DNA from: Pseudomonas pergaminensis
GTDB taxonomy: Bacteria; Pseudomonadota; Gammaproteobacteria; Pseudomonadales; Pseudomonadaceae
Assembly (NCBI RefSeq): GCF_024112395.2
Contig: NZ_CP078013.2
Span: forward strand, 3,348,001 to 3,412,000
Direction of reading: 5' to 3'
Length of the DNA stretch: 64,000 nt
How positions within the stretch are numbered: the first letter of the stretch is position 1; every line of letters starts with the position of its first letter. Position numbers and translations under genes: made by a program. Of this stretch, positions 54,375-63,854 are shown piece after piece. A model generated the notes under the pieces. It did not search any database and was not told the origin of the DNA. It saw only the letters and a program-made list of their open reading frames with translations.

Positions 54375-55583
54375 ATGTCTCGAAGCATCGCCCACCTCGC
54401 CCTCCTCCTGGGCTTGATCACCGCCGTCGGCCCCTTTGCCATCGATATCTATCTGCCCGCCTTGCCGACCCTGGGCGCGAGCCTGCACGCCTCGCCGGCA
54501 CTGGTGCAGATGAGCCTCACGGTGTTCTTCGTCATCGTTGGCGTGTGCCAGCTGTTCTACGGGCCGATCAGTGATGTGTTCGGGCGCAAGCCGCCGATCT
54601 ACGCCGGCTTGGTGATTTTTGCGCTGGCCAGTGTTGGCTGCGCCCTGGCGCCGACCATCGAAACCCTGATCGCCTTTCGTGCCCTGCAGGCGTTTGGCGC
54701 GTGCGCGGGCATGGTGATTCCGCGCGCCATCGTGCGGGACCTCTACACCGGGCATGAAGCCGCGAAACTCATGGCCTTGCTGATGTTGGTGATGAGTGTC
54801 TCACCGATCCTGGCGCCGCTCGCCGGCAGCCTGGTGATCTCGTTGTGGAGCTGGCGTGAAGTGTTTGCCGTGTTGGCGGTGGTGGCCGTGGCGTGCCTGG
54901 TGATGACCATCGTGCAACTGCCCGAAACCCATCCGGCCGAGCGCCGCCTGGGCAAGACCCTGGGCAACGCGTTCAGCAGCTACGGCGCGTTGCTGCGTGA
55001 CCCGGTATTCATCGGGTTGTCAGTGGTATGCGGTTTTGGCCTGGCGACCTTCTTCGTGTTTATCGGCAGTGCGCCGTTCGTGTACATCGAGCATTACGGC
55101 CTGACGCCAACGCAATTCAGCCTGGGGTTTGCGCTGAATGCCGCCTCGTTTTTCGCCATGAGCCAACTCACTGCACGCCTCAGTGCGCGCTTTGGCCTCG
55201 CGCCGCTGATTCGTTGGTCGGTGGTAGCCGTGGCGGCGGTCATGACCGTGCTGGCGGCCACCACGCTGTGGGTCGACAGCCTGGCCTTGACCATGACGCT
55301 GCTGTTTATCGGCTTCGGTTTTCTCGGGCTGTTGCTGCCCGCAGCGGGCGTGTTGTCGTTGGAGGATCATGGCGCGGCGGCGGGTTCTGCCTCGGCCTTG
55401 CTCGGAGCGATCCAGATGATCACCGCCGCCGTGTCCATGACGCTGGTCGGTGTGTTCGCCGATCACACACCCGCGCCGATGTTAATCGGCATCGCACTGT
55501 GCGCTGTCGCGGCGATGCTCACCACGCTGTGGACGCTGCGCCGTCTACCGGCTCACTTGGCGAGCGCCCCGCCCTCCTCCTGA
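54375..55583 (+). CDS. MFS exporter, Bcr/CflA family
   Basis: 402 residues, twelve hydrophobic helices. 'GPFAIDIYLPALPTLGASL' at residues 16-34 and the motif A loop 'GPISDVFGRKPPIYAGL' near 63 are diagnostic of the Bcr/CflA drug-resistance family (bicyclomycin, sulfonamide or cysteine export in relatives). Inner membrane, proton-driven. The end overlaps the convergent DUF971 gene by 31 bp. Confidence 0.87.
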   Translation: MSRSIAHLALLLGLITAVGPFAIDIYLPALPTLGASLHASPALVQMSLTVFFVIVGVCQLFYGPISDVFGRKPPIYAGLVIFALASVGCALAPTIETLIAFRALQAFGACAGMVIPRAIVRDLYTGHEAAKLMALLMLVMSVSPILAPLAGSLVISLWSWREVFAVLAVVAVACLVMTIVQLPETHPAERRLGKTLGNAFSSYGALLRDPVFIGLSVVCGFGLATFFVFIGSAPFVYIEHYGLTPTQFSLGFALNAASFFAMSQLTARLSARFGLAPLIRWSVVAVAAVMTVLAATTLWVDSLALTMTLLFIGFGFLGLLLPAAGVLSLEDHGAAAGSASALLGAIQMITAAVSMTLVGVFADHTPAPMLIGIALCAVAAMLTTLWTLRRLPAHLASAPPSS

Positions 55584-55861
55584 TCGCTGCCCAATTGCGC
55601 CAGGTACGCCCACGGATAAATCCCGCGCTGGTGGCCATCGCTGAACACCAGTTGCACGCCATAACCCTGAGGGTGGACCTCCACCACCCTCACCGCGTCC
55701 GACACCATCGGTGGGCTGCCCCGTAGCCGAAACGCCCGGCACTGCGAGCAGGGGCATGCACGGCGCAGGCGTGCATGCTCGATCCATTGGGCACCGTCGG
55801 CCCACTCCAGGCGCAGACGGCCGTCGCGGCCTTTGCCAATGGCGTTCGGCGCGGCGGTCAT
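55553..55861 (-). CDS. DUF971-domain protein
   Basis: 102 residues, one DUF971 domain: 'LRLEWADGAQWIEHARLRRA' then 'CPCSQCRAFRL' (CPC-x2-C, likely metal-binding), 'VRVVEVHPQGYGVQLVFSDG' and 'GIYPWAYL'. This domain also forms the N-terminal zinc-binding part of gamma-butyrobetaine hydroxylases and occurs with iron-sulfur assembly genes. It starts inside the stop of the HEAT-repeat gene (4-bp overlap), as the last member of the GntR-controlled transport/redox run. Confidence 0.85.
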   Translation of the reverse strand: MTAAPNAIGKGRDGRLRLEWADGAQWIEHARLRRACPCSQCRAFRLRGSPPMVSDAVRVVEVHPQGYGVQLVFSDGHQRGIYPWAYLAQLGSDQEEGGALAK

Positions 55862-56802
55862 TGCAGCTGCGCCAAGGCTATCCGCACGGCCTTGCGCACT
55901 TCCGGGTCGCCATCGTCGGCTGCATCACGTAACGCCGCCAACGCCTGGCGATCGCCCAATTCGCCGAGTGCCAGGGCGGCCTCCTTGCGCAGGTTGCTGA
56001 TGCTGTGGCCCAGGGTCTGGATCAACGCCCCTAGCGCCGGGAGATAACGCAGGCGGCCAAGGCTGCGCGTCGCCCGCAAGCGAACCTGCCAGTACTCGTC
56101 CGTCAGCGCTTCGACCAGCGCATCCCCCGCATTGAGGCTGCCGACTTTGCCCAAGGTGGTTGCGGCTTCCTCCCGTACTTGCCAGGCCGGGTCCAGCAAC
56201 GCCTGGTGCAGCGCCGGTAGAACCTGGTCATCGTTCGCCAACCCCAGGGCGCCGGTGGCAGCGCGGCGGACCTCTGTGTCGGGATCGCTGCTGGCCAAGG
56301 TCGCCAGGGCTTCAAGCGCAGGCAGGTGCTTGAGCCACCCCAGCACGCCCACCGCTTCACGCCGGATACCCGCGTCGGCGTCCGCCAATGCCAGCAAGGC
56401 CGCCGGCGCCGCCGCTGCCAGGCGCAGCTCGCGCAATGCGCGGAATATCGCGGTGCGCACGCTCACATCGGCATGCTCGGTCCAGGGCAACAGCAATGCC
56501 CCCGCCTCGGCGGTTTTCAATACGCTCAGGCTCTGGGCGGCCGCCTCGCGCACGGGCGGTTCGGCATCTGTGAGCGCCTCGCACAACGCCTGCACCACCT
56601 CGGTTTCTTCCCAGGCTTCCAGCAAGGTGGCGGCCTGGGCACGCACGTCCACAGAGGGATCGTTGCGCAGGCTGTCCACCAGCCATTCAAGGCCGTCGGG
56701 GTCTTCAAGGTCAGCCAAGTCGATCAGGGCAATGCGGCGCATGCCGGCGTCCGGGGCTTGCAGGCGCGGGCGCAGGGCTTCTATTTCCAGGTTATAGGTC
56801 AT
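55858..56802 (-). CDS. HEAT-repeat protein (PBS-lyase-like repeats)
   Basis: 314 residues made of about nine HEAT repeats of 30-31 residues with the pattern DPDxxVRxxAAxALG ('DPDTEVRRAATGALG', 'DPAWQVREEAATTLG', 'DEYWQVRLRATRSLG', 'DGDPEVRKAVRIALAQ'). Such solenoids bind partner proteins; relatives attach cofactors or act as assembly factors. It overlaps the ABC ATPase gene upstream and the DUF971 gene downstream by 4 bp each, so it is made in step with both, suggesting a role in maturation of the flavoprotein/ferredoxin pair or the importer. That role is inference. Confidence 0.85.
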   Translation of the reverse strand: MTYNLEIEALRPRLQAPDAGMRRIALIDLADLEDPDGLEWLVDSLRNDPSVDVRAQAATLLEAWEETEVVQALCEALTDAEPPVREAAAQSLSVLKTAEAGALLLPWTEHADVSVRTAIFRALRELRLAAAAPAALLALADADAGIRREAVGVLGWLKHLPALEALATLASSDPDTEVRRAATGALGLANDDQVLPALHQALLDPAWQVREEAATTLGKVGSLNAGDALVEALTDEYWQVRLRATRSLGRLRYLPALGALIQTLGHSISNLRKEAALALGELGDRQALAALRDAADDGDPEVRKAVRIALAQLQ

Positions 56803-57629
56803 ATGGCAAATCGCGGTGTTGAATGATCGGTGGGCAACCCGAGCGGGTTCAGGCGTGGCAACTGGCGGCCATCTTCATGGTGCAGCAGTTCCAGGCAATG
56901 ACGCTTGAGGTGAGTGAATTCGGGGGTGGTCATCAGTTCGGTATGGCGCGGCCGCGCAAAGTCCAGCGAGAAGTCTTCGATAATGCGCCCCGGGCGCGGG
57001 CTCATTACCAGGATGCGATCGGCCAGGAACAGCGCCTCATCAATATCGTGGGTGACGAACACCACCGTGGTGCGAATGCGCGTCCAGATATCCAGCAGCA
57101 AGGCCTGCATCTTCATGCGCGTCAGCGCGTCCAGCGCGCCGAACGGCTCGTCCATCAGCAACAGGCGTGGGCGATTGACCAGCACCCGGGCGATTTCCAC
57201 GCGCTGCTGCATGCCGCCCGACAGCTGGTTCGGCCAACGCTCGGCAAACCCTTCAAGCCCGACCAGGGCCAGGATCTCGTCGGCTGCGGCCAACCGCTCA
57301 GCCTTGGCCACGCCGCGCATCTTCAAACCGAACGCGACGTTCTCGCGCACGCTGCGCCACGGGAACAACGTGTGCTGTTGGAACACCATGCCGCGTTGCT
57401 GGGACGGGCCGACCACTGGCTGCCCGTCCATTTGCAACGTGCCCTGGCTCGGCACCAGGTGGCCGGCCAACGCGCCAAGCAAGGTCGATTTGCCGCAGCC
57501 CGACGGGCCGAGAATGCACACGAATTGCCCCGGCTCGATCCTGCAATCCAGTGCCTTGACTGCCTCGAATGCCTGCGCCTGTTCGCCCAGGACAATGGAC
57601 AAACCGCTGATTTCAATCCGACCTTCCAT
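56799..57629 (-). CDS. ABC transporter ATPase, TauB/SsuB type
   Basis: 276 residues. Walker A 'GPSGCGKST' near residue 41, Q-loop, signature 'LSGGMQQRVE' near 139, Walker B 'LLLMDEPFGALD' near 159 and H-loop 'VFVTHDIDEA' near 193 are all intact. This sequence group energises nitrate/sulfonate/taurine-type importers. Overlaps the permease gene by one base and the HEAT gene by four. Confidence 0.9.
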   Translation of the reverse strand: MEGRIEISGLSIVLGEQAQAFEAVKALDCRIEPGQFVCILGPSGCGKSTLLGALAGHLVPSQGTLQMDGQPVVGPSQQRGMVFQQHTLFPWRSVRENVAFGLKMRGVAKAERLAAADEILALVGLEGFAERWPNQLSGGMQQRVEIARVLVNRPRLLLMDEPFGALDALTRMKMQALLLDIWTRIRTTVVFVTHDIDEALFLADRILVMSPRPGRIIEDFSLDFARPRHTELMTTPEFTHLKRHCLELLHHEDGRQLPRLNPLGLPTDHSTPRFAI

Positions 57630-58411
57630 CAGGCTTTACCTCGCGAACGGTGCCAAGGGGTGAACACGGCGCCCAGGCGCTTGACCAGCCAACTGCTGCC
57701 CATGCCCAGCACGCCGATCAACAGCATGCCAACCACAATGTCGGCATAGTTCTGGATGGTGTATGACTCCCAGGTGTAATAGCCGATGCCGAACTGTCCG
57801 GAGATCATCTCCGCCGTCACCAGGCAGAACCACGACGTACCCATGCCAATGGCCAGGCCGGTGATGATGCTGGGTGCGGCGCCCGGCACCACCACTTCCC
57901 GCAGGATCGCGCCCCGCCCTGCCCCCAGGCTGCGTGCCGAAGCAATCAACCGTGGATCGACGCCCTCGACGCCGTGCACGGTATTGAGCAGGATCGGAAA
58001 CAGCGCACCGGTAAAGGTGATGAACACCATCGACAGCTCCGACGATGGAAACATCAGGATCGCCAACGGTATCCACGCCACCGCCGGAATCGGTCGGATG
58101 ACTTCCAGGGGTGGCAGCAGCACATCTTCAGCCCATTTCGAACGACCGATAGCGATGCCCAAGCCAACCCCCACCAGCACTGCCGCCAGGTAACCTTCGA
58201 ACACCCGGGTCAGGCTCGCGCTTAAATGCCGGGCCAGCTTGCCCGAGTCCGCCAACCCCAGCGCCGCCTCCAGCACGGCGCCTGGGGTGGGTACGTTGGC
58301 AAAGGTCACCAGCCACAGGTTCCAGTGGTGGCTGGCAGCAAGTTGCCAGAACAACAGGCACACCAGCAGTGACGCTGTGCGCGGCAACCAGCGATAAGCA
58401 GCAGTCGACAT
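57629..58411 (-). CDS. ABC transporter permease, TauC/SsuC type
   Basis: 260 residues from the ATG at 58411 (SD GAGAGGAA). Six hydrophobic helices and the EAA-like loop 'RLIASARSLGAGRGAILREV' near residue 165 typical of the nitrate/sulfonate family permeases. Inner-membrane channel of the importer; lies 13 bp after the binding-protein gene. Confidence 0.9.
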   Translation of the reverse strand: MSTAAYRWLPRTASLLVCLLFWQLAASHHWNLWLVTFANVPTPGAVLEAALGLADSGKLARHLSASLTRVFEGYLAAVLVGVGLGIAIGRSKWAEDVLLPPLEVIRPIPAVAWIPLAILMFPSSELSMVFITFTGALFPILLNTVHGVEGVDPRLIASARSLGAGRGAILREVVVPGAAPSIITGLAIGMGTSWFCLVTAEMISGQFGIGYYTWESYTIQNYADIVVGMLLIGVLGMGSSWLVKRLGAVFTPWHRSRGKA

Positions 58412-58424
58412 GGGCCTATTCCTC

Positions 58425-59831
58425 TCAGCGACCGACCACGGCCTGCGCGCCGGCCGTGGTGAAGTCAAACACCTTGCCGCCCTGGGCATCCGCGAACTGC
58501 TGCGCCTGGCCCTTGAGCAGGAATGCACTCAACGTGCCTTGGCGATCACTGGCAAACCACGCCTGGTTGGCGAGCAGCTTGATGCCGCTGTCTTCGGCCT
58601 GGGCGTAGACGGCACGCACGTCCTTGCCGTCTTTTTTCAAACGGGCCAATGCACTGAACGCAGATTCGGCAGACGCGTAGTCACGCACCTTGGGCTCGCC
58701 TTTCACCCAGATTTGCGCCACGTGTTTCCAGTCGGTGATGGGCTTGCCGGTCAAGGCGTCGTTGGCCTTGAGCGGGGCCTGGGCGTAATTGCCCAGCTGC
58801 GCCTGATAGTCCAGGCCGGACGCCTTGAAGGCAGCGCGGATGTACTGGTCATCGATAAAGGTAGTGAGGTCGAGGCCACGGTCGGCTTTTTTCAGCAGCT
58901 TGAGGGTGTCGATGGCGGTGCCGACAGCCTGGCGGTATTCCGGCTTCCAGCTCAGGTCACGGGTTTGCACGCCAAGCGGGCCGTGGAACAGGTAGCTGAC
59001 CTCGGCTTCGACGCCGGTGACTTTTTCGATCAGTTCGCTGTATTTCTCCGGTTCCGCCGCCAGCAACTGGTTGGCTTCGATAGTCGCACGCAGGTAGGCG
59101 GCGACCACTTCCGGGTACTGGCGGGCGTAGCTTTCATCCACCAGCGCGCCGTGGAAGGTCGGGGTGTTGGACTGCGAACCGTCATAGATCTTGCGGGCGA
59201 AACCCCGGTTGGGGAACAACTCGGCAAACGGCACGAAGTCGGCATGCGCCTCGATCTTGTTGGCTTGCAGCGCCGAACCCGCCACTTCGGGCGCCTGGGC
59301 GATGATGTTCACATCCGTGAGTGGGTCCCAGCCTTGCGCCGCGACCGCCCGCAACAGCATGCCGTGGGCGGTGGACGCGAACGGCACCGAAATGGTCTTG
59401 CCCTTCAGGTCGGCCAACGACTGGGCGCTGGACTCGGTCGGCACCACAATGCCATTGCCACTGCCTTTGATATTGCCCGACAGCACGCTGATAAACAGGC
59501 TGTGCTTGCCAGCGCCCTCAAACGCCACGCCGTTGAAGGCGCCGGGGAAGTCGGCCATGGCGCCGAAGTCGAGCTTGCCGGCCACCATTTCGTTGGTCAG
59601 CGGTGCGCCACTGGTGAAGTTTTTCCACTGGATATCATAGGTGGCGTCCTTGTACTTGCCGTCATGGGGCAAGTACTTGTCCAGCAGGCCCAGCTCGCGG
59701 ATCAGCAAGCCGCCAGCGACGCAGTTGATGGTGGTGTCCTGGGTACCGATGGCGACCCGGATGGTCTGTGCCTGTACCGACAGGCTCAAGGAAGCCAGCA
59801 CCAGGCCGGCCAAAGTTGCGCGCAAGAACAT
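58425..59831 (-). CDS. ABC transporter substrate-binding protein, NMT1/TauA/NrtA-like
   Basis: 468 residues. Signal peptide at 1-22 (cleavage after 'SVQA'), mature start 'TIRVAIGTQDTTINCVAGG', then the NMT1/SsuA-like pattern 'NFTSGAPLTNEMVAGKLDFG' and 'KGKTISVPFASTAHGML'. At 468 residues it is distinctly longer than TauA or SsuA (about 320), closer to NrtA-type proteins, with an extra C-terminal region around 340-450. Ligand not evident; sulfonates, nitrate/nitrile-like or heterocyclic compounds are handled by relatives. Confidence 0.87.
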   Translation of the reverse strand: MFLRATLAGLVLASLSLSVQAQTIRVAIGTQDTTINCVAGGLLIRELGLLDKYLPHDGKYKDATYDIQWKNFTSGAPLTNEMVAGKLDFGAMADFPGAFNGVAFEGAGKHSLFISVLSGNIKGSGNGIVVPTESSAQSLADLKGKTISVPFASTAHGMLLRAVAAQGWDPLTDVNIIAQAPEVAGSALQANKIEAHADFVPFAELFPNRGFARKIYDGSQSNTPTFHGALVDESYARQYPEVVAAYLRATIEANQLLAAEPEKYSELIEKVTGVEAEVSYLFHGPLGVQTRDLSWKPEYRQAVGTAIDTLKLLKKADRGLDLTTFIDDQYIRAAFKASGLDYQAQLGNYAQAPLKANDALTGKPITDWKHVAQIWVKGEPKVRDYASAESAFSALARLKKDGKDVRAVYAQAEDSGIKLLANQAWFASDRQGTLSAFLLKGQAQQFADAQGGKVFDFTTAGAQAVVGR

Positions 59832-59952
59832 TGGGTGTTTCCCCTCGAATCATGGTTATAGGCATCGTCTCCGCCGCGATCTGGCGCGGTGGGAAACGAG
59901 GGGGGTACGGCGTTGGCGTCCGGTGTTGGCGGATGGCTTGGAGTCGACACGC

Positions 59953-60198
59953 TCAGCGCAGCAGGTACGGGATCTCGACCTTGACCGCGCCTGTGGGGCA
60001 ATCCTTTTCACACGGCATGCAGTACCAGCATTCGTCGAACGCCATATACGCCTTCTGTGTTGCGGGATTGATCGCCAGCAGGTCCATCGGGCAGACGTCG
60101 ACGCACACCGTGCAGCCTTTTTCGGCAATGCACTTGTCTTCGTCGATCGTCACCGGCGCGTTGGAGCGAAAAAATATTTCCTGGGGTTGGTAGGCCAT
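59953..60198 (-). CDS. 2[4Fe-4S] ferredoxin, AprB-like
   Basis: 81 residues with eight cysteines in two cluster motifs: Cys23, 29, 32, 36 ('CIAEKGCTVCVDVCP') and Cys57, 60, 63, 67 ('CWYCMPCEKDCP'). The widened first motif (C-x5-C-x2-C-x3-CP) recalls the beta subunit of adenylylsulfate reductase. Probably the electron partner of the flavoprotein encoded 131 bp upstream; a long hairpin lies between the two genes. Cytoplasmic. Confidence 0.87.
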   Translation of the reverse strand: MAYQPQEIFFRSNAPVTIDEDKCIAEKGCTVCVDVCPMDLLAINPATQKAYMAFDECWYCMPCEKDCPTGAVKVEIPYLLR

Positions 60199-60238
60199 TT
60201 CACGGTGTCCTTAGCACTTTGTGGTTGTGCTGATTGTT

Positions 60239-60301
60239 GTGGTGAGCGGGCTTCTGTGGTGAGTGGGCTTGCCCTGCTCACCACAGAAGCCCGCTCACCA
60301 C
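60239..60301. repeat. Long imperfect inverted repeat between flavoprotein and ferredoxin genes
   Basis: 28-bp arms (60239-60266 and 60274-60301) with three mismatches, near the apex, around a 7-bp loop. Each arm contains two copies of the GTGGTGAG(C/T)GGG motif, and a further half-copy follows at 60302-60318. It belongs to the same repeat type as 24830-24857 and would form a strong hairpin in the operon mRNA. Confidence 0.8.
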
Positions 60302-60329
60302 AGGAAGCCCGTTCACCAGAGATTGAGCT

Positions 60330-62060
60330 TCAGGCCGCATCAGCCCCCACGCGCAGGCGGTCGTAGGCTTGCATTTCTTCGGCGTCCAACGGAATGACGT
60401 AGGGCTCCACGGGTTTCTTGAAGCTGACCATCTGGCCGTCATCGCCCTTTTTCAGGTGGCAATGGCAGAACCAGTCGGCGTCATTGCGCAGCGGGTGATC
60501 GACGCGATGGTGGTACAGGCCCCAGCGGCTCTCGGCGCGGAACAGCGAAGCGCGGGCGGCCATTTCAGCGCAGTCGCGGATCACGCTGGTTTCCATGGCG
60601 CGCATCAGTTCGTGGGGGTTGTGGGCTTTCATCTGGTCGAGGTCGCGCTGGATATCGCTGAAGCGCTGCAGGCCGATTTCCATCTTGCGGGTGACCTTGG
60701 GCGGCTGCAGATAATCGTTCACGAAACGCCGCAGCTTGTACTCGACCTGCGCCGGCGGCAGGCCGGTTTCGCGGTCCAGCGGCGCGTAGACGCGGGCCTG
60801 TTCTGCTGCGACTTGCTCGGTGTTTACCGCGCTGAATTCTTTCTCCACCACATACTGGGCGGCGTTGGTACCGGCAAACCAACCGTAGGTAAACGCGCCC
60901 AGCATGTAGTTATGCGGCACCGCCGCCATGTCGCCGGCCGAATACAGGCCTTTCACCGAGGTTTCGGCACGCTCGTTCACCCACACGCCGGAGGCCGAAT
61001 GCCCGCTGCAAAAGCCGATCTCGGAGATGTGCATCTCGACCATGTCGCTGCGGTAATCGGTGCCCCGGTTGGCGTGGAACTGGCCACGGCTCGGGCGCTC
61101 GTTGCTGTGCAGGATGGTTTCGATGTTCTGGATGGTTTCCTCGGCCAGGTGGTCGAGCTTGAGAAACACCGGGCCATTGCCGCTTTCGAGTTCCTGATGG
61201 AACTCCCACATCATCTGGCCGCTCCAGTAGTCGCACTCGATAAAGCGCTCACCCTTGTTATTGGCGGTGTAGCCACCCAGCGGGCCCGTCACGTAGGCGC
61301 AGGCCGGGCCGTTGTAATCCTTGATCAACGGGTTGATCTGGAAGCACTCCAGGTTCGCCAGTTCGGCGCCCGCGTGGTAGGCCATGGCGTAGCCGTCGCC
61401 GGCATTGGTAGGGTTTTCATAGGTGCCCATCAGGTAGCCCGACGACGGCAAGCCCAGCCGGCCCGCCGCGCCGCAGCACAGAATCACAGCCTTGGCCTTG
61501 ATCACCTGGAAGTCGGCGGTGCGGCAGTCAAAGCCCATCACGCCGTTGACCGCGCCTTCGCTGTCAGTCAGCAAGCGCGTGCACACCAAGCGGTTGGTGA
61601 TAGTCACCCGGGCACGCTTGAGCTGGCGGTACAGCACTTTCTTGATGTCATGGCCCTCGGGCATCGGCAGCACGTAGGCGCCCATGTGGTGAACCTTTTT
61701 CACCGCGTAGTCGCCGGTCTCGTCCTTTTCGAACTTCACCCCCCAGCGGTCCAACTGCTCGATGGTCTCGTAACTGTGGGTGGCATAGGCGTACACCGCT
61801 GCCTGGTTGACGATGCCGTCGTTGGCGATGGTGATTTCCTTGGTGTATTGCTCAGGCGTCGAGTGACCGGGGATGATCGCGTTGTTCAGCCCGTCCATGC
61901 CCATGCTGATCGCACCGCTGCGCTTGACGTTGGCCTTGTCCACCAGCAACACACGCAGCGCCGGGTTGGCTTCCTTGGCCTTGATCGCCGCCATCGGCCC
62001 GGCTGTGCCGCCGCCGATCACTACGATGTCGTATTCCAGCTCCAGGGTTGTGCGGCTCAC
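60330..62060 (-). CDS. FAD-dependent oxidoreductase of the fumarate reductase/AprA type
   Basis: 576 residues. FAD-binding Rossmann motif 'IVVIGGGTAGPMAAIKAKE' at residues 12-30 and AprA-like 'KRSGAISMGMDGLNN' near residue 46. A fumarate-reductase-type FAD/capping region follows ('NPTNAGDGYAMAYHAGAEL', 'LYSAGDMAAVPHNYMLGA'), then the helical C-terminal domain. Similarity is closer to the alpha subunit of adenylylsulfate reductase than to SdhA/FrdA, but lengths and neighbours differ from aprBA of sulfate reducers. It overlaps the GntR gene by 4 bp, and the AprB-like ferredoxin follows, so a soluble flavin-iron-sulfur oxidoreductase acting on the imported compound is a reasonable inference. Confidence 0.85.
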   Translation of the reverse strand: MSRTTLELEYDIVVIGGGTAGPMAAIKAKEANPALRVLLVDKANVKRSGAISMGMDGLNNAIIPGHSTPEQYTKEITIANDGIVNQAAVYAYATHSYETIEQLDRWGVKFEKDETGDYAVKKVHHMGAYVLPMPEGHDIKKVLYRQLKRARVTITNRLVCTRLLTDSEGAVNGVMGFDCRTADFQVIKAKAVILCCGAAGRLGLPSSGYLMGTYENPTNAGDGYAMAYHAGAELANLECFQINPLIKDYNGPACAYVTGPLGGYTANNKGERFIECDYWSGQMMWEFHQELESGNGPVFLKLDHLAEETIQNIETILHSNERPSRGQFHANRGTDYRSDMVEMHISEIGFCSGHSASGVWVNERAETSVKGLYSAGDMAAVPHNYMLGAFTYGWFAGTNAAQYVVEKEFSAVNTEQVAAEQARVYAPLDRETGLPPAQVEYKLRRFVNDYLQPPKVTRKMEIGLQRFSDIQRDLDQMKAHNPHELMRAMETSVIRDCAEMAARASLFRAESRWGLYHHRVDHPLRNDADWFCHCHLKKGDDGQMVSFKKPVEPYVIPLDAEEMQAYDRLRVGADAA

Positions 62061-62812
62061 GGGCGGCTTCCTCGTTCACGGTCGATGCGCAGGCGATACT
62101 GGAAGGCGTCGCCACGGTAATACAGGTGTTCAAAGTCCACCGGCTGGCCGTCGGCGGTATGGGTCAAGCGCTCGATATGCATGATCGGCGAGCCCGGTTC
62201 CACGTTCAGCGCCTGGGTCAGGTCGCTGTCGGCCAGCACGGCGTCGATGGCCACATCCGCATGCCCCAAGTGCAGGCCGCAGTCGTTTTCCAGGATCAGG
62301 AAGATGTCGCGGGTGACCAGGTCAGCCTTTTCCAGGCGCTCGCCGAGGGGTTGCGGCAGGTAGGTGATTTCCAGCGACACCGGCTCTCGGTTGATCAGGC
62401 GCACCCGCTTGATCTGCGCAACCACGGTGCCCTCCTCCACGCCCAGGCGCTCGGCCACCTGCTTGTCGGCCGGCACGAAACGAAAACTGCGCAAGCGGTT
62501 GATCACTTCATAACCGCGCTCGGTCATCGACTCGGCCAACCCCTGCAAGGTGCTGACGTTCTGGTAGGCCTTGGGCTTGGACACAAACGTGCCTTTGCCA
62601 TGAATCTTGTAGATCAAGCCCTCTTTCTGCAGGTCGCCCAATGCCTGCCGCACGGTGATGCGGCTGACTTTGAAGCGCACGCCCAACTCGCTTTCTGAGG
62701 GCATTTGAGTGTTGGGCGCGTATTCGCCGTCGAGAATGCGACTGCGCAACAGGTCGCGCAGTTGGGCATGCAGGGGAATGCTGGACAGTGGAGAGAGGCT
62801 GGAATCGTTCAT
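62057..62812 (-). CDS. GntR-family regulator with UTRA domain (HutC subfamily)
   Basis: 251 residues from the ATG at 62812; an in-frame GTG at 62821 is the alternative, neither has a strong SD. Winged helix 'QMPSESELGVRFKVSRITVR' then 'QALGDLQKEGLIYKIHGKGT' at residues 38-77, UTRA effector domain from about 95 ('EPVSLEITYLPQPLGERLEK', 'HLYYRGDAFQYRLRIDR'). First gene of the operon, and a perfect palindrome lies just upstream, so autoregulation and control of the whole run are likely. The UTRA ligand would be the operon's substrate. Confidence 0.88.
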   Translation of the reverse strand: MNDSSLSPLSSIPLHAQLRDLLRSRILDGEYAPNTQMPSESELGVRFKVSRITVRQALGDLQKEGLIYKIHGKGTFVSKPKAYQNVSTLQGLAESMTERGYEVINRLRSFRFVPADKQVAERLGVEEGTVVAQIKRVRLINREPVSLEITYLPQPLGERLEKADLVTRDIFLILENDCGLHLGHADVAIDAVLADSDLTQALNVEPGSPIMHIERLTHTADGQPVDFEHLYYRGDAFQYRLRIDRERGSRP

Positions 62813-62823
62813 CAAGGTCACTT

Positions 62824-62841
62824 GTCATAACGAGTTATGAC
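62824..62841. promoter_or_regulatory. Perfect GntR-type palindrome upstream of the operon
   Basis: GTCATAAC-GA-GTTATGAC is an exact 8-bp inverted repeat with a 2-bp centre, lying 11 bp before the GntR start. The GT...AC ends and length match HutC-subfamily operators. No second copy was found before the ferredoxin or binding-protein genes. Confidence 0.75.
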
Positions 62842-62996
62842 GTGATCTTAAGAAGTCTAATGGCGGCGGTGGAAATACCGTTTATGCATAAGCTTAAAGC
62901 CAACCACTCGTCGGGCTTCAGCGGCATCCGTTACAACTATCGCCCGGCATGTAACTACTAACCCCATAGCCCCTTTGCACTGCTATGGAGATTGAT

Positions 62997-63854
62997 ATGA
63001 CTGACTATCCTCGCCCGCCCTTCGCCCCTCAAGCCCAAGCTGTTCCAGGTGCGCAGAAAAAAATGGACCCGTACCCCGACTGCGGCGAGAAAAGCTACAA
63101 GGGCTCCGGCCGACTCGCCAACAAGATCGCGCTGATCACCGGTGCCGACAGCGGCATCGGGCGCGCGGTGGCTATCGCCTTTGCCCGTGAAGGCGCCGAC
63201 GTGGCCATCGCTTATCTGGACGAGCATGAAGACGCCCAGGAAACCGCACGCTGGGTCGAAGAGGCCGGTCGCCAATGCCTGTTGCTGCCCGGTGACATTG
63301 CGCAGAAAAGCGTGTGCCAGTCGTTGGTGGATAAAACCGTCGAGCAGTTCGGTCGCATCGACGTGCTGGTGAACAACGCCGCGTTCCAGATGACCCACGA
63401 GTCCCTTGAGGACATCGAGGACGAGGAATGGGTGAAGACCTTCGATATCAACATCACGGCGATGTTTCGTATCTGCAAAGCGGCCTTGCCACATATGAAG
63501 GCCGGCAGTTCGATCATCAACACCAGCTCGGTCAACTCCGACATGCCCAAGCCGACGCTGCTGGCCTATGCCGCCACCAAGGGTGCGATCGCCAACTTCA
63601 CCGGTGGCTTGGCGCAGTTGCTCGGTAGCAAAGGGATTCGGGTCAACAGTGTGGCACCGGGGCCGATCTGGACGCCGCTGATTGTGGCAACCATGCCGGA
63701 TGAGGATGTGCAGAGCTTCGGCAGCGAAACCCCGCTGGGGCGTCCGGGCCAACCGGTGGAAGTGGCGCCGATCTATGTGCTGTTGGCCTCGGATGAAGCC
63801 AGCTACATCTCGGGTTCGCGATATGCGGTGACTGGCGGCAAGCCGATCCTCTAA
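62997..63854 (+). CDS. SDR-family oxidoreductase, YghA-like
   Basis: 285 residues from the ATG at 62997 (GGAG six bases upstream); an in-frame ATG at 62985 is less well placed. Long N-terminal extension ('PYPDCGEKSYKGSGRLANK') typical of the YghA/general-stress group, then 'TGADSGIG', 'NNAAFQ' (NNAG variant), Ser in 'NTSSVNS', 'YAATK' and 'APGPIWTPL'. Often stress-induced in pseudomonads. Separated from the GntR operon by a divergent promoter region. Confidence 0.87.
   Translation: MTDYPRPPFAPQAQAVPGAQKKMDPYPDCGEKSYKGSGRLANKIALITGADSGIGRAVAIAFAREGADVAIAYLDEHEDAQETARWVEEAGRQCLLLPGDIAQKSVCQSLVDKTVEQFGRIDVLVNNAAFQMTHESLEDIEDEEWVKTFDINITAMFRICKAALPHMKAGSSIINTSSVNSDMPKPTLLAYAATKGAIANFTGGLAQLLGSKGIRVNSVAPGPIWTPLIVATMPDEDVQSFGSETPLGRPGQPVEVAPIYVLLASDEASYISGSRYAVTGGKPIL

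Follow-up and report, generated by a model that had tools for sequence, protein, structure and literature searches.

What does a bacterium do with proteins resembling the two subunits of adenylylsulfate (APS) reductase when they are encoded together with an importer of their own? The question is raised by a cassette of eight minus-strand genes (positions 55553-62812) in a 64,000-nucleotide window of the Pseudomonas pergaminensis genome (contig NZ_CP078013.2, positions 3,348,001 to 3,412,000), by which we mean the whole stretch of DNA that was analyzed; the genome is a single contig of 6.6 Mb, and cassette coordinates are window positions. In operon order, the genes encode a GntR/HutC-type regulator, a flavoprotein related to AprA, a ferredoxin related to AprB, the binding protein, permease, and ATPase of an ATP-binding cassette (ABC) importer, a HEAT-repeat protein, and a DUF971 protein (Table 1). 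They are separated by -4, +131, +121, +13, -1, -4, and -4 bp, and the overlaps of 4, 1, 4, and 4 bp bear out an earlier note on this DNA, which had read the co-oriented genes as a single uptake-plus-redox unit belonging to no described pathway; literature searches aimed at it turned up no publication that, by title or abstract, describes the cassette or its function. The cassette is real, unusual, and widely conserved, and its probable role is to take up a sulfur-containing acid and release sulfite from it.

Conservation was assessed in 117 loci: 80 from Pseudomonas (the best 80 of 593, all 80 titled Pseudomonas), 20 phylum loci (every other genome that passed the family cut-off in a sample of 398 from Pseudomonadota, six of the 20 being Pseudomonadaceae), and 17 plasmid loci chosen from the matches listed, 143 plasmid records having matched. 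A gene was scored as present at ≥36% identity for GntR, ≥42% for the permease and ATPase, and >100 bits for the binding protein, within 9 kb of the flavoprotein gene; these thresholds miss a few genuine genes, such as the permease genes of loci L114 and L147, which are visible in the gene maps. Flavoprotein and ferredoxin genes are present in 117/117 loci, and the complete gene order of the window is found in 84/117, mostly Pseudomonas. All 31 loci from outside the Pseudomonadaceae, which represent Pseudomonadota, Cyanobacteriota, and Actinomycetota, combine the flavoprotein, ferredoxin, and HEAT genes. For the Pseudomonas, phylum, and plasmid loci, respectively, the counts are 77/80, 20/20, and 17/17 for HEAT; 76/80, 20/20, and 7/17 for DUF971; 77/80, 18/20, and 14/17 for the binding protein; and 79/80, 9/20, and 7/17 for GntR, with the three missing HEAT genes and the four DUF971 genes missing from Pseudomonas all falling at contig ends.

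The arrangement of these genes varies between lineages. In 14 loci, of which the named ones are alphaproteobacterial, the DUF971 gene lies by flavoprotein–ferredoxin–HEAT, with the importer genes downstream in eight and divergent in six. Three of four cyanobacterial loci show the importer genes followed by flavoprotein–ferredoxin–HEAT, and both actinomycete loci follow the order GntR–ferredoxin–importer–flavoprotein::HEAT. Because content is kept while order is reshuffled, the cassette genes appear to be functionally linked, and the unit recognized in the earlier note is conserved across phyla, well beyond close relatives. Within the genus of the window, the flavoprotein gene occurs in 41 of 119 sampled genomes, its own included, and close named protein relatives are nearly all from Pseudomonas.

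The flavoprotein, with FAD_binding_2 and Succ_DH_flav_C domains, is a member of the fumarate reductase superfamily and belongs to NF006131/PRK08275 (1139.1 bits, cut-off 587), an uncharacterized family that already exists as a named NCBIfam model. It scores 179.5 bits against the aprA model TIGR02061 (cut-off 641.75) and 292 bits against an AprA-like family, far under that family's cut-off. The nearest solved structures by sequence are the alpha subunit of the 3'-phosphoadenylylsulfate (PAPS) reductase of Methanothermococcus thermolithotrophicus (MtPAPSR; 8a8o, E 1e-59), followed by AprA (1jnr); the flavoprotein shares 29% identity with MtPAPSR and 27-28% with two AprA sequences. In an IQ-TREE phylogeny of 37 sequences, the family forms a clade (97/99) opposite AprA, MtPAPSR, and an AprA-like protein of Ilyobacter (100/99), the lone outgroup branch being very long; the flavoprotein clusters with none of the characterized enzymes compared, a possibility that the earlier note had raised. 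Fumarate reductase/succinate dehydrogenase was rejected as its identity on a score of 161.2 bits against TIGR01812 (sdhA/frdA; cut-off 567). These enzymes have both domains in common with the flavoprotein, whereas the cassette contains neither a membrane anchor nor an FrdB-type subunit.

At the positions of AprA R265, R317, and W234, all 26 family members aligned have Leu, a gap, and Tyr, in contrast to R/R/W in 8/8 AprA sequences and in MtPAPSR in the joint alignment. The family keeps an Asn at N74, a His at H398, and an aromatic residue at F448 (we take all six positions to follow AfAprA numbering). In these 26 sequences from several phyla, 194 of 576 positions, about a third, are invariant, which indicates a tightly constrained enzyme. 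The invariant residues include His124, Tyr129, Tyr214, Lys247, Cys254, Gln282, Arg322, Arg325, Arg332, Arg337, His354, and His383. Of these, Gln282 faces an SdhA Arg, presumably the catalytic capping-domain Arg, in the HMMER alignment and a gap in the joint alignment. The structure model of the flavoprotein was poor (mean pLDDT, the predicted local distance difference test, of 57) and was not used.

All 117 ferredoxin homologs have at least eight cysteines and the motif DECW[YF]C, whose Trp we take to correspond to the electron-transfer Trp of AprB; the eight cysteines and a CW.C motif are common to AprAB and MtPAPSR. Against the aprB model, the ferredoxin scores 36.3 bits, below the cut-off of 135.65. 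A residue Trp42 is named in MtPAPSR in a figure legend of the report on that enzyme, which proposes a reaction via a flavin-N5 sulfite adduct (PMC10322725); by analogy, adduct chemistry of this kind may operate in the cassette flavoprotein. The proteins likened to AprA and AprB in the earlier note are thus homologous to them, yet do not qualify as an APS reductase in these tests. Both AprAB and MtPAPSR pair an FAD (flavin adenine dinucleotide) subunit with a 2[4Fe-4S] subunit, as here. Unlike them, the cassette has a ferredoxin of only 81 aa, its own importer, and HEAT and DUF971 proteins, with no ATP sulfurylase or APS kinase nearby. Queries with CysC, CysD, a CysN-like protein, and CysH (E ≤ 1e-10) matched 0/117 cassette loci. 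The earlier statement that sulfate-reduction genes are absent therefore holds for the surroundings of the cassette; elsewhere, the genome encodes an ordinary CysD and a CysH-type APS/PAPS reductase.

The importer resembles TauABC, SsuABC, and NrtABC/CmpABCD in its binding-protein fold, permease, and ATPase types, whereas its components stay below the cut-offs of those families and its binding protein has an additional domain. In fold, the binding protein most resembles TauA and SsuA, with CmpA-type proteins at a tie, and it scores 115.6 bits against TIGR01728 (SsuA-type; cut-off 163.5). For the permease, the best scores are SaoP 143, ntrB 141, SsuC 131, and TauC 128 bits, none above cut-off, and the ATPase is closest to TauB (PRK11248, 266 bits; cut-off 357). 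The unusual length of the binding protein pointed out earlier, 468 aa, is explained by its C-terminal domain, which, taken as a fragment of the protein, matches NosL (PF05573) at 18.5 bits (E 0.0027; gathering score 24). Of 59 aligned binding proteins, 41 match NosL at E ≤ 0.01 (best 2.1e-5), the window's protein not being among them, and the domain appears to be related to NosL rather than a NosL proper. NosL is absent from the VIA-align rows, an absence that is not informative for this part.

Genes of sulfur metabolism recur beside the cassette in other genomes; neighbor clusters made up of reading frames antisense to cassette genes were disregarded. YeiH-family genes occur in 9/31 non-Pseudomonadaceae loci, and of 18 cassette genomes with a YeiH gene, six have it no more than 9 kb away from the flavoprotein gene. 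yeiH is described as the key sulfite-resistance gene of Salmonella, whose deletion causes high sulfite sensitivity (PMC12880088). Genes for TauE/SafE exporters adjoin the cassettes of L116, L146, L148, and L140. In Pseudomonas, one cassette borders genes for a taurine dioxygenase and TauB (L074) and another has a taurine dioxygenase gene one gene away (L072), all above curated cut-offs. TauD-like dioxygenase genes lie near the cassettes of L067, L071, L080-L082, L124, L127, and Sinorhizobium L150 (57% identity), an SsuD relative is present in Nonomuraea L149, and SsuC-like relatives were also among the sulfonate genes tested and found near cassettes. This link between cassette and sulfonate genes is suggestive and not universal. 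Potential electron suppliers are represented as well: genes for homologous ferredoxin-NADP reductases occur in 10/31 and for FdxA in 6/31 non-Pseudomonadaceae loci, and in L134 YeiH, ferredoxin-NADP reductase, flavoprotein, ferredoxin, and HEAT genes follow one another on one strand. As a separate observation, one cassette genome has a single YeiH-family gene (G335:C1:2757117-2758027), which reads as two pieces and sits a long way from the cassette, in contrast to the other members of its genus.

The HEAT and DUF971 proteins, which the earlier note had suggested to be maturation or partner factors, can be placed by comparison. The HEAT protein of the window matches the HEAT region at the C-terminus (612-896) of PRK13800, a curated family of flavoprotein–HEAT fusions, and in actinomycetes flavoprotein and HEAT are indeed fused (L147 is a PRK13800 member, 1568 bits, cut-off 1196). 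A DUF971 gene stands at the cassette in 21/21 cassette genomes searched and is the genome's sole DUF971 gene in six. All four fetched cyanobacterial cassettes have an Mrp-type ATPase and none a detected DUF971; the one such ATPase scanned has NUBPL-type and FeS_assembly_P domains. MMS19, for comparison, is a HEAT protein. The iron–sulfur (Fe–S) factor HCF101 combines an Mrp ATPase with DUF971, and MMS19 belongs to the eukaryotic cluster-targeting complex (PMC5890173, PMC11838916). Because of the exchange of DUF971 for Mrp and the parallels with HCF101 and MMS19, in which DUF971, an Mrp/NBP35-type ATPase, or HEAT repeats likewise go with a 2[4Fe-4S] client, we reason that HEAT and DUF971 would form an Fe–S cluster-loading or partner module, in support of the earlier suggestion. 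Unlike HCF101, the DUF971 protein of the window is a separate small protein (102 aa, DUF971 domain only) without a P-loop NTPase domain.

Regulation may be tied to the substrate. A perfect 18-bp palindrome, GTCATAACTCGTTATGAC, precedes the gntR gene; the span given in the earlier note, ending at 62841, ends exactly with it. It is the sole perfect copy in the genome, with one further site at ≤2 mismatches. Variants were recognized by eye ahead of gntR in most Pseudomonas loci examined, in Acinetobacter L118, Aquabacterium L140, Paraburkholderia L144, and some others, and none was seen by eye in L078, L114, or L119. The palindrome is likely the operator of the GntR regulator. In L116 (7658-9673), L146 (9388-11424), and L148 (9673-11673), LysR regulators of ~670 aa carry an extra C-terminal domain homologous to the cassette binding protein and may be one-component sensors made from a part of the importer. 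Crp/Fnr-family regulators replace GntR in loci of alphaproteobacterial type (L129-L139, L141-L143, and L150), and 16/31 non-Pseudomonadaceae loci contain a relative of one such regulator (L141, 15192-15962).

Based on these data, a simple model would make the operon a substrate-inducible system for the assimilation of sulfonate-type organosulfur compounds, in which ferredoxin-driven reductive cleavage releases sulfite. The TauA/SsuA-type importer would bring in an anion with an S-oxo group, and the AprA-like flavoprotein and AprB-like 2[4Fe-4S] ferredoxin would form the cytoplasmic enzyme. Electrons would pass from NADPH through ferredoxin-NADP reductase and ferredoxin to the enzyme, where a two-electron reduction at the flavin would cleave the substrate; the sulfite released would enter cysteine synthesis or be exported. 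The bond cut could be a C-S, S-S, N-S, or O-S bond. The HEAT protein would bind the flavoprotein as its partner, and installation of the Fe–S clusters would be aided by the DUF971 protein or, in cyanobacteria, by an Mrp/NBP35 ATPase. GntR would repress from the palindrome until it binds substrate or product. The importer is assigned to the sulfonate type because the binding-protein fold is nearest to TauA and SsuA (tied with CmpA) and the ATPase to TauB; the reductive direction is favored because ferredoxin-NADP reductase and FdxA genes accompany the cassette in other lineages; sulfite is the predicted product because YeiH, TauE, and sulfonate genes recur nearby; and inducibility is proposed because the palindrome is unique and LysR regulators with a binding-protein-like sensor occur in three of four cyanobacterial loci. 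Reductive release of sulfite is the most economical mechanism, and the organosulfur reading is favored. Taken as a whole, the proposal stands at even odds of being correct, and our confidence in the mechanism is moderate.

Several observations weigh against this proposal. No YeiH gene is present in the window's genome, and neither TauE, YeiH, nor any of the sulfonate genes tested lies beside the window's own operon. YeiH is not adjacent to the cassette in 12 of the 18 YeiH-containing cassette genomes, and five of the six adjacent cases come from one genus. The tested sulfonate genes were found in the fetched flanks of only 12/80 Pseudomonas loci, counts for which there is no chance control. 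The importer could carry a non-sulfur anion, given the tie between the TauA, SsuA, and CmpA folds, and the binding protein was not detected in 2/20 phylum and 3/17 plasmid loci. Since R265, R317, and W234 of AprA are not conserved, AprA chemistry is not simply transferable, and the Asn kept near the flavin is also found in the sole succinate dehydrogenase-type sequence aligned. Finally, DUF971 was not detected in 10/17 plasmid loci and is thus not obligatory.

Alternatively, the imported compound could be free of sulfur, such as an N-heterocycle, a nitrile, or a carboxylate, and the enzyme could reduce or oxidize a C=C, C=N, or N-O bond. Other enzymes of the fumarate reductase superfamily act on such bonds, the binding-protein fold is also that of nitrate, bicarbonate, and hydroxymethylpyrimidine binders, and amidase and GNAT genes adjoin the Methylocystis and Nostoc cassettes, with an amidase gene also in L130. 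We nevertheless consider a sulfur-free substrate unlikely, as genes for YeiH, TauE, TauD, SsuD, and sulfonate importers recur by the cassette in several lineages and, among solved structures, PAPS and APS reductases come closest in sequence. Of the organosulfur or nitrogen compound that the earlier note had envisaged, the organosulfur branch is therefore the one retained, the nitrogen branch having little contextual support.

A sulfur substrate could also meet a fate different from reductive release of sulfite: for example, a sulfinate or sulfite might be oxidized, or a sulfoxide or sulfone might be reduced to something other than sulfite. The same sulfur context and the loss of most AprA substrate residues would accommodate such an outcome, and the sulfite exporters could serve neighboring sulfonate oxygenases instead of this enzyme. 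Yet some of the cassettes come with ferredoxin-NADP reductase or FdxA, YeiH, ferredoxin-NADP reductase, and flavoprotein genes are co-oriented in L134, and the cyanobacterial loci L116, L146, and L148 have YeiH and TauE but no sulfonate oxygenase annotated in the stretches covered, for which the gene tables are incomplete. This outcome is accordingly judged improbable, and of the flavin/Fe–S reduction or oxidation left open earlier, reduction is favored over oxidation.

An APS or PAPS reductase proper, or the reverse reaction from sulfite and AMP to APS, beside an unrelated importer would fit the fact that both subunits are homologous to AprA/AprB and MtPAPSR. It is very improbable in view of the low aprA score, the replaced or missing R265, R317, and W234 in 26/26 members, the separate clade, the CysD and CysH already present in the genome, and the absence of sulfate-activation matches from the 117 loci, unlike the Ilyobacter AprA-like locus with its cysC and cysD. 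APS/PAPS reductase was rejected as an identity for the enzyme on the model scores, lost substrate residues, separate clade, and lack of sulfate-activation neighbors. Least credible of all is a metal-chelate or copper system, in which the NosL-like domain would bind copper and the redox enzyme would release or use the metal: some members of alphaproteobacterial type or from actinomycetes have cysteines there, but the window's domain has none, and the recurrent neighbors indicate sulfite rather than metals. NosL and MerB are related proteins. The selenocysteine-assisted organometallic (SAO) system, treated in a review (PMC13188914), is a weak candidate, the permease scoring 143 bits against SaoP and the ATPase 230 bits against SaoA, both far below cut-off, SaoL-, SaoC-, and SaoT-like genes not having been searched for.

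More generally, the sulfite-releasing model has implications beyond this operon. Known routes of sulfonate cleavage use oxygenases, thiamine, pyridoxal phosphate, or glycyl radicals, and the oxygenases TauD and SsuD require O2. The cassette would probably do the same job as TauD and SsuD, releasing sulfite from an imported sulfonate, whereas its enzyme is an Fe–S flavoenzyme with a predicted reductive route. Tentatively, and with less assurance than for the operon itself, it might exemplify a general O2-independent reductive desulfonation by AprAB-type flavin/2[4Fe-4S] enzymes with HEAT/DUF971 (or Mrp) cluster-loading factors of their own. If so, this would be a class of sulfonate cleavage distinct from the known routes, spread through Pseudomonadota, Cyanobacteriota, and Actinomycetota and masked by the label fumarate reductase. 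At least 6565 proteins match a cyanobacterial flavoprotein query at E ≤ 1e-60, not all of which are necessarily true members, and database names among the matches listed are mostly fumarate reductase/succinate dehydrogenase, with one adenylylsulfate reductase alpha and one putative oxidoreductase. If the model is correct, the cassette would be a new bacterial way of obtaining sulfur and would point to unnoticed reductive sulfur acquisition in many soil, plant-associated, and photosynthetic bacteria; it would also provide a small bacterial model for HEAT/DUF971/Mrp-assisted Fe–S loading.

Table 1. Features of the cassette, in operon order (window positions)
Feature	Position	Strand	Remarks
Palindrome GTCATAACTCGTTATGAC	62824..62841		Perfect, 18 bp; 11 bp ahead of gntR start codon
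GntR/HutC-type regulator, operon's first gene	62057..62812	-	GntR PF00392 70.7 bits and UTRA PF07702 136.9 bits; ATG at 62812
AprA-like FAD flavoprotein	60330..62060	-	GTG start; NF006131/PRK08275; likely catalytic subunit
REP pair, inverted	60239..60301		Between flavoprotein and ferredoxin genes
AprB-like 2[4Fe-4S] ferredoxin, 81 aa	59953..60198	-	PF12838 36.9 bits; likely electron-transfer subunit
Periplasmic binding protein, 468 aa	58425..59831	-	TauA/SsuA/NrtA/CmpA fold, residues ~20-350
NosL-like C-terminal domain of binding protein	58458..58721	-	Residues ~371-458
ABC permease, SaoP/NtrB/SsuC/TauC type	57629..58411	-	PF00528 81.6 bits
ABC ATPase, TauB type	56799..57629	-	PF00005 120.7 bits
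HEAT-repeat protein, putative flavoprotein partner	55858..56802	-	PF13646 204.5 bits
DUF971 protein, likely Fe–S cluster factor	55553..55861	-	PF06155 68.7 bits, cut-off 22.8

Individual loci depart from the common arrangement. In Pseudomonas L081, binding-protein and permease genes were not detected, and GntR, flavoprotein, ferredoxin, HEAT, and DUF971 are retained. No recurring alternative transporter was found in L120 and L138, stretches without detected ABC genes, and a membrane protein of L138 has no Pfam match at E ≤ 0.001. On plasmid pTcM1 of Acidithiobacillus caldus (L114, 10574-14035), after the core cassette come genes for FdxA and for an FAD-dependent oxidoreductase of 1153 aa that has a Pyr_redox_2 domain and is a possible electron donor. 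On pNe_5 of Nostoc edaphicum (L145, 12001-21432), genes for two HAD hydrolases, a methyltransferase, a GNAT protein, and a FosA-like VOC protein split the flavoprotein and ferredoxin genes, and HEAT is followed by an Mrp ATPase, a GNAT protein, and an amidase. MetX and O-acetylhomoserine sulfhydrylase are encoded near this cassette, and relatives of both are present in Nonomuraea L149.

The repetitive extragenic palindromic (REP) pair is an insertion in the operon, outside the conserved cassette. Its family, GTGGTGAGCGGGCTT, has 161 matches in the genome at ≤1 mismatch (74 + 87), against 0 + 1 for the reversed control, and the RNA between the flavoprotein and ferredoxin genes folds into a very stable hairpin (-72.9 kcal/mol, z -8.75). 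The corresponding spacer measures just ~30-60 bp in the relatives L008, L016, and L024 and is longer in others, for example L072. The genes flanking the operon belong to ordinary families and are not members of the cassette: a short-chain dehydrogenase/reductase gene (62985-63854, plus strand) and a major facilitator superfamily gene (54375-55583, plus strand). The latter converges with the DUF971 gene, and their 3' ends overlap by 31 bp (55553-55583).

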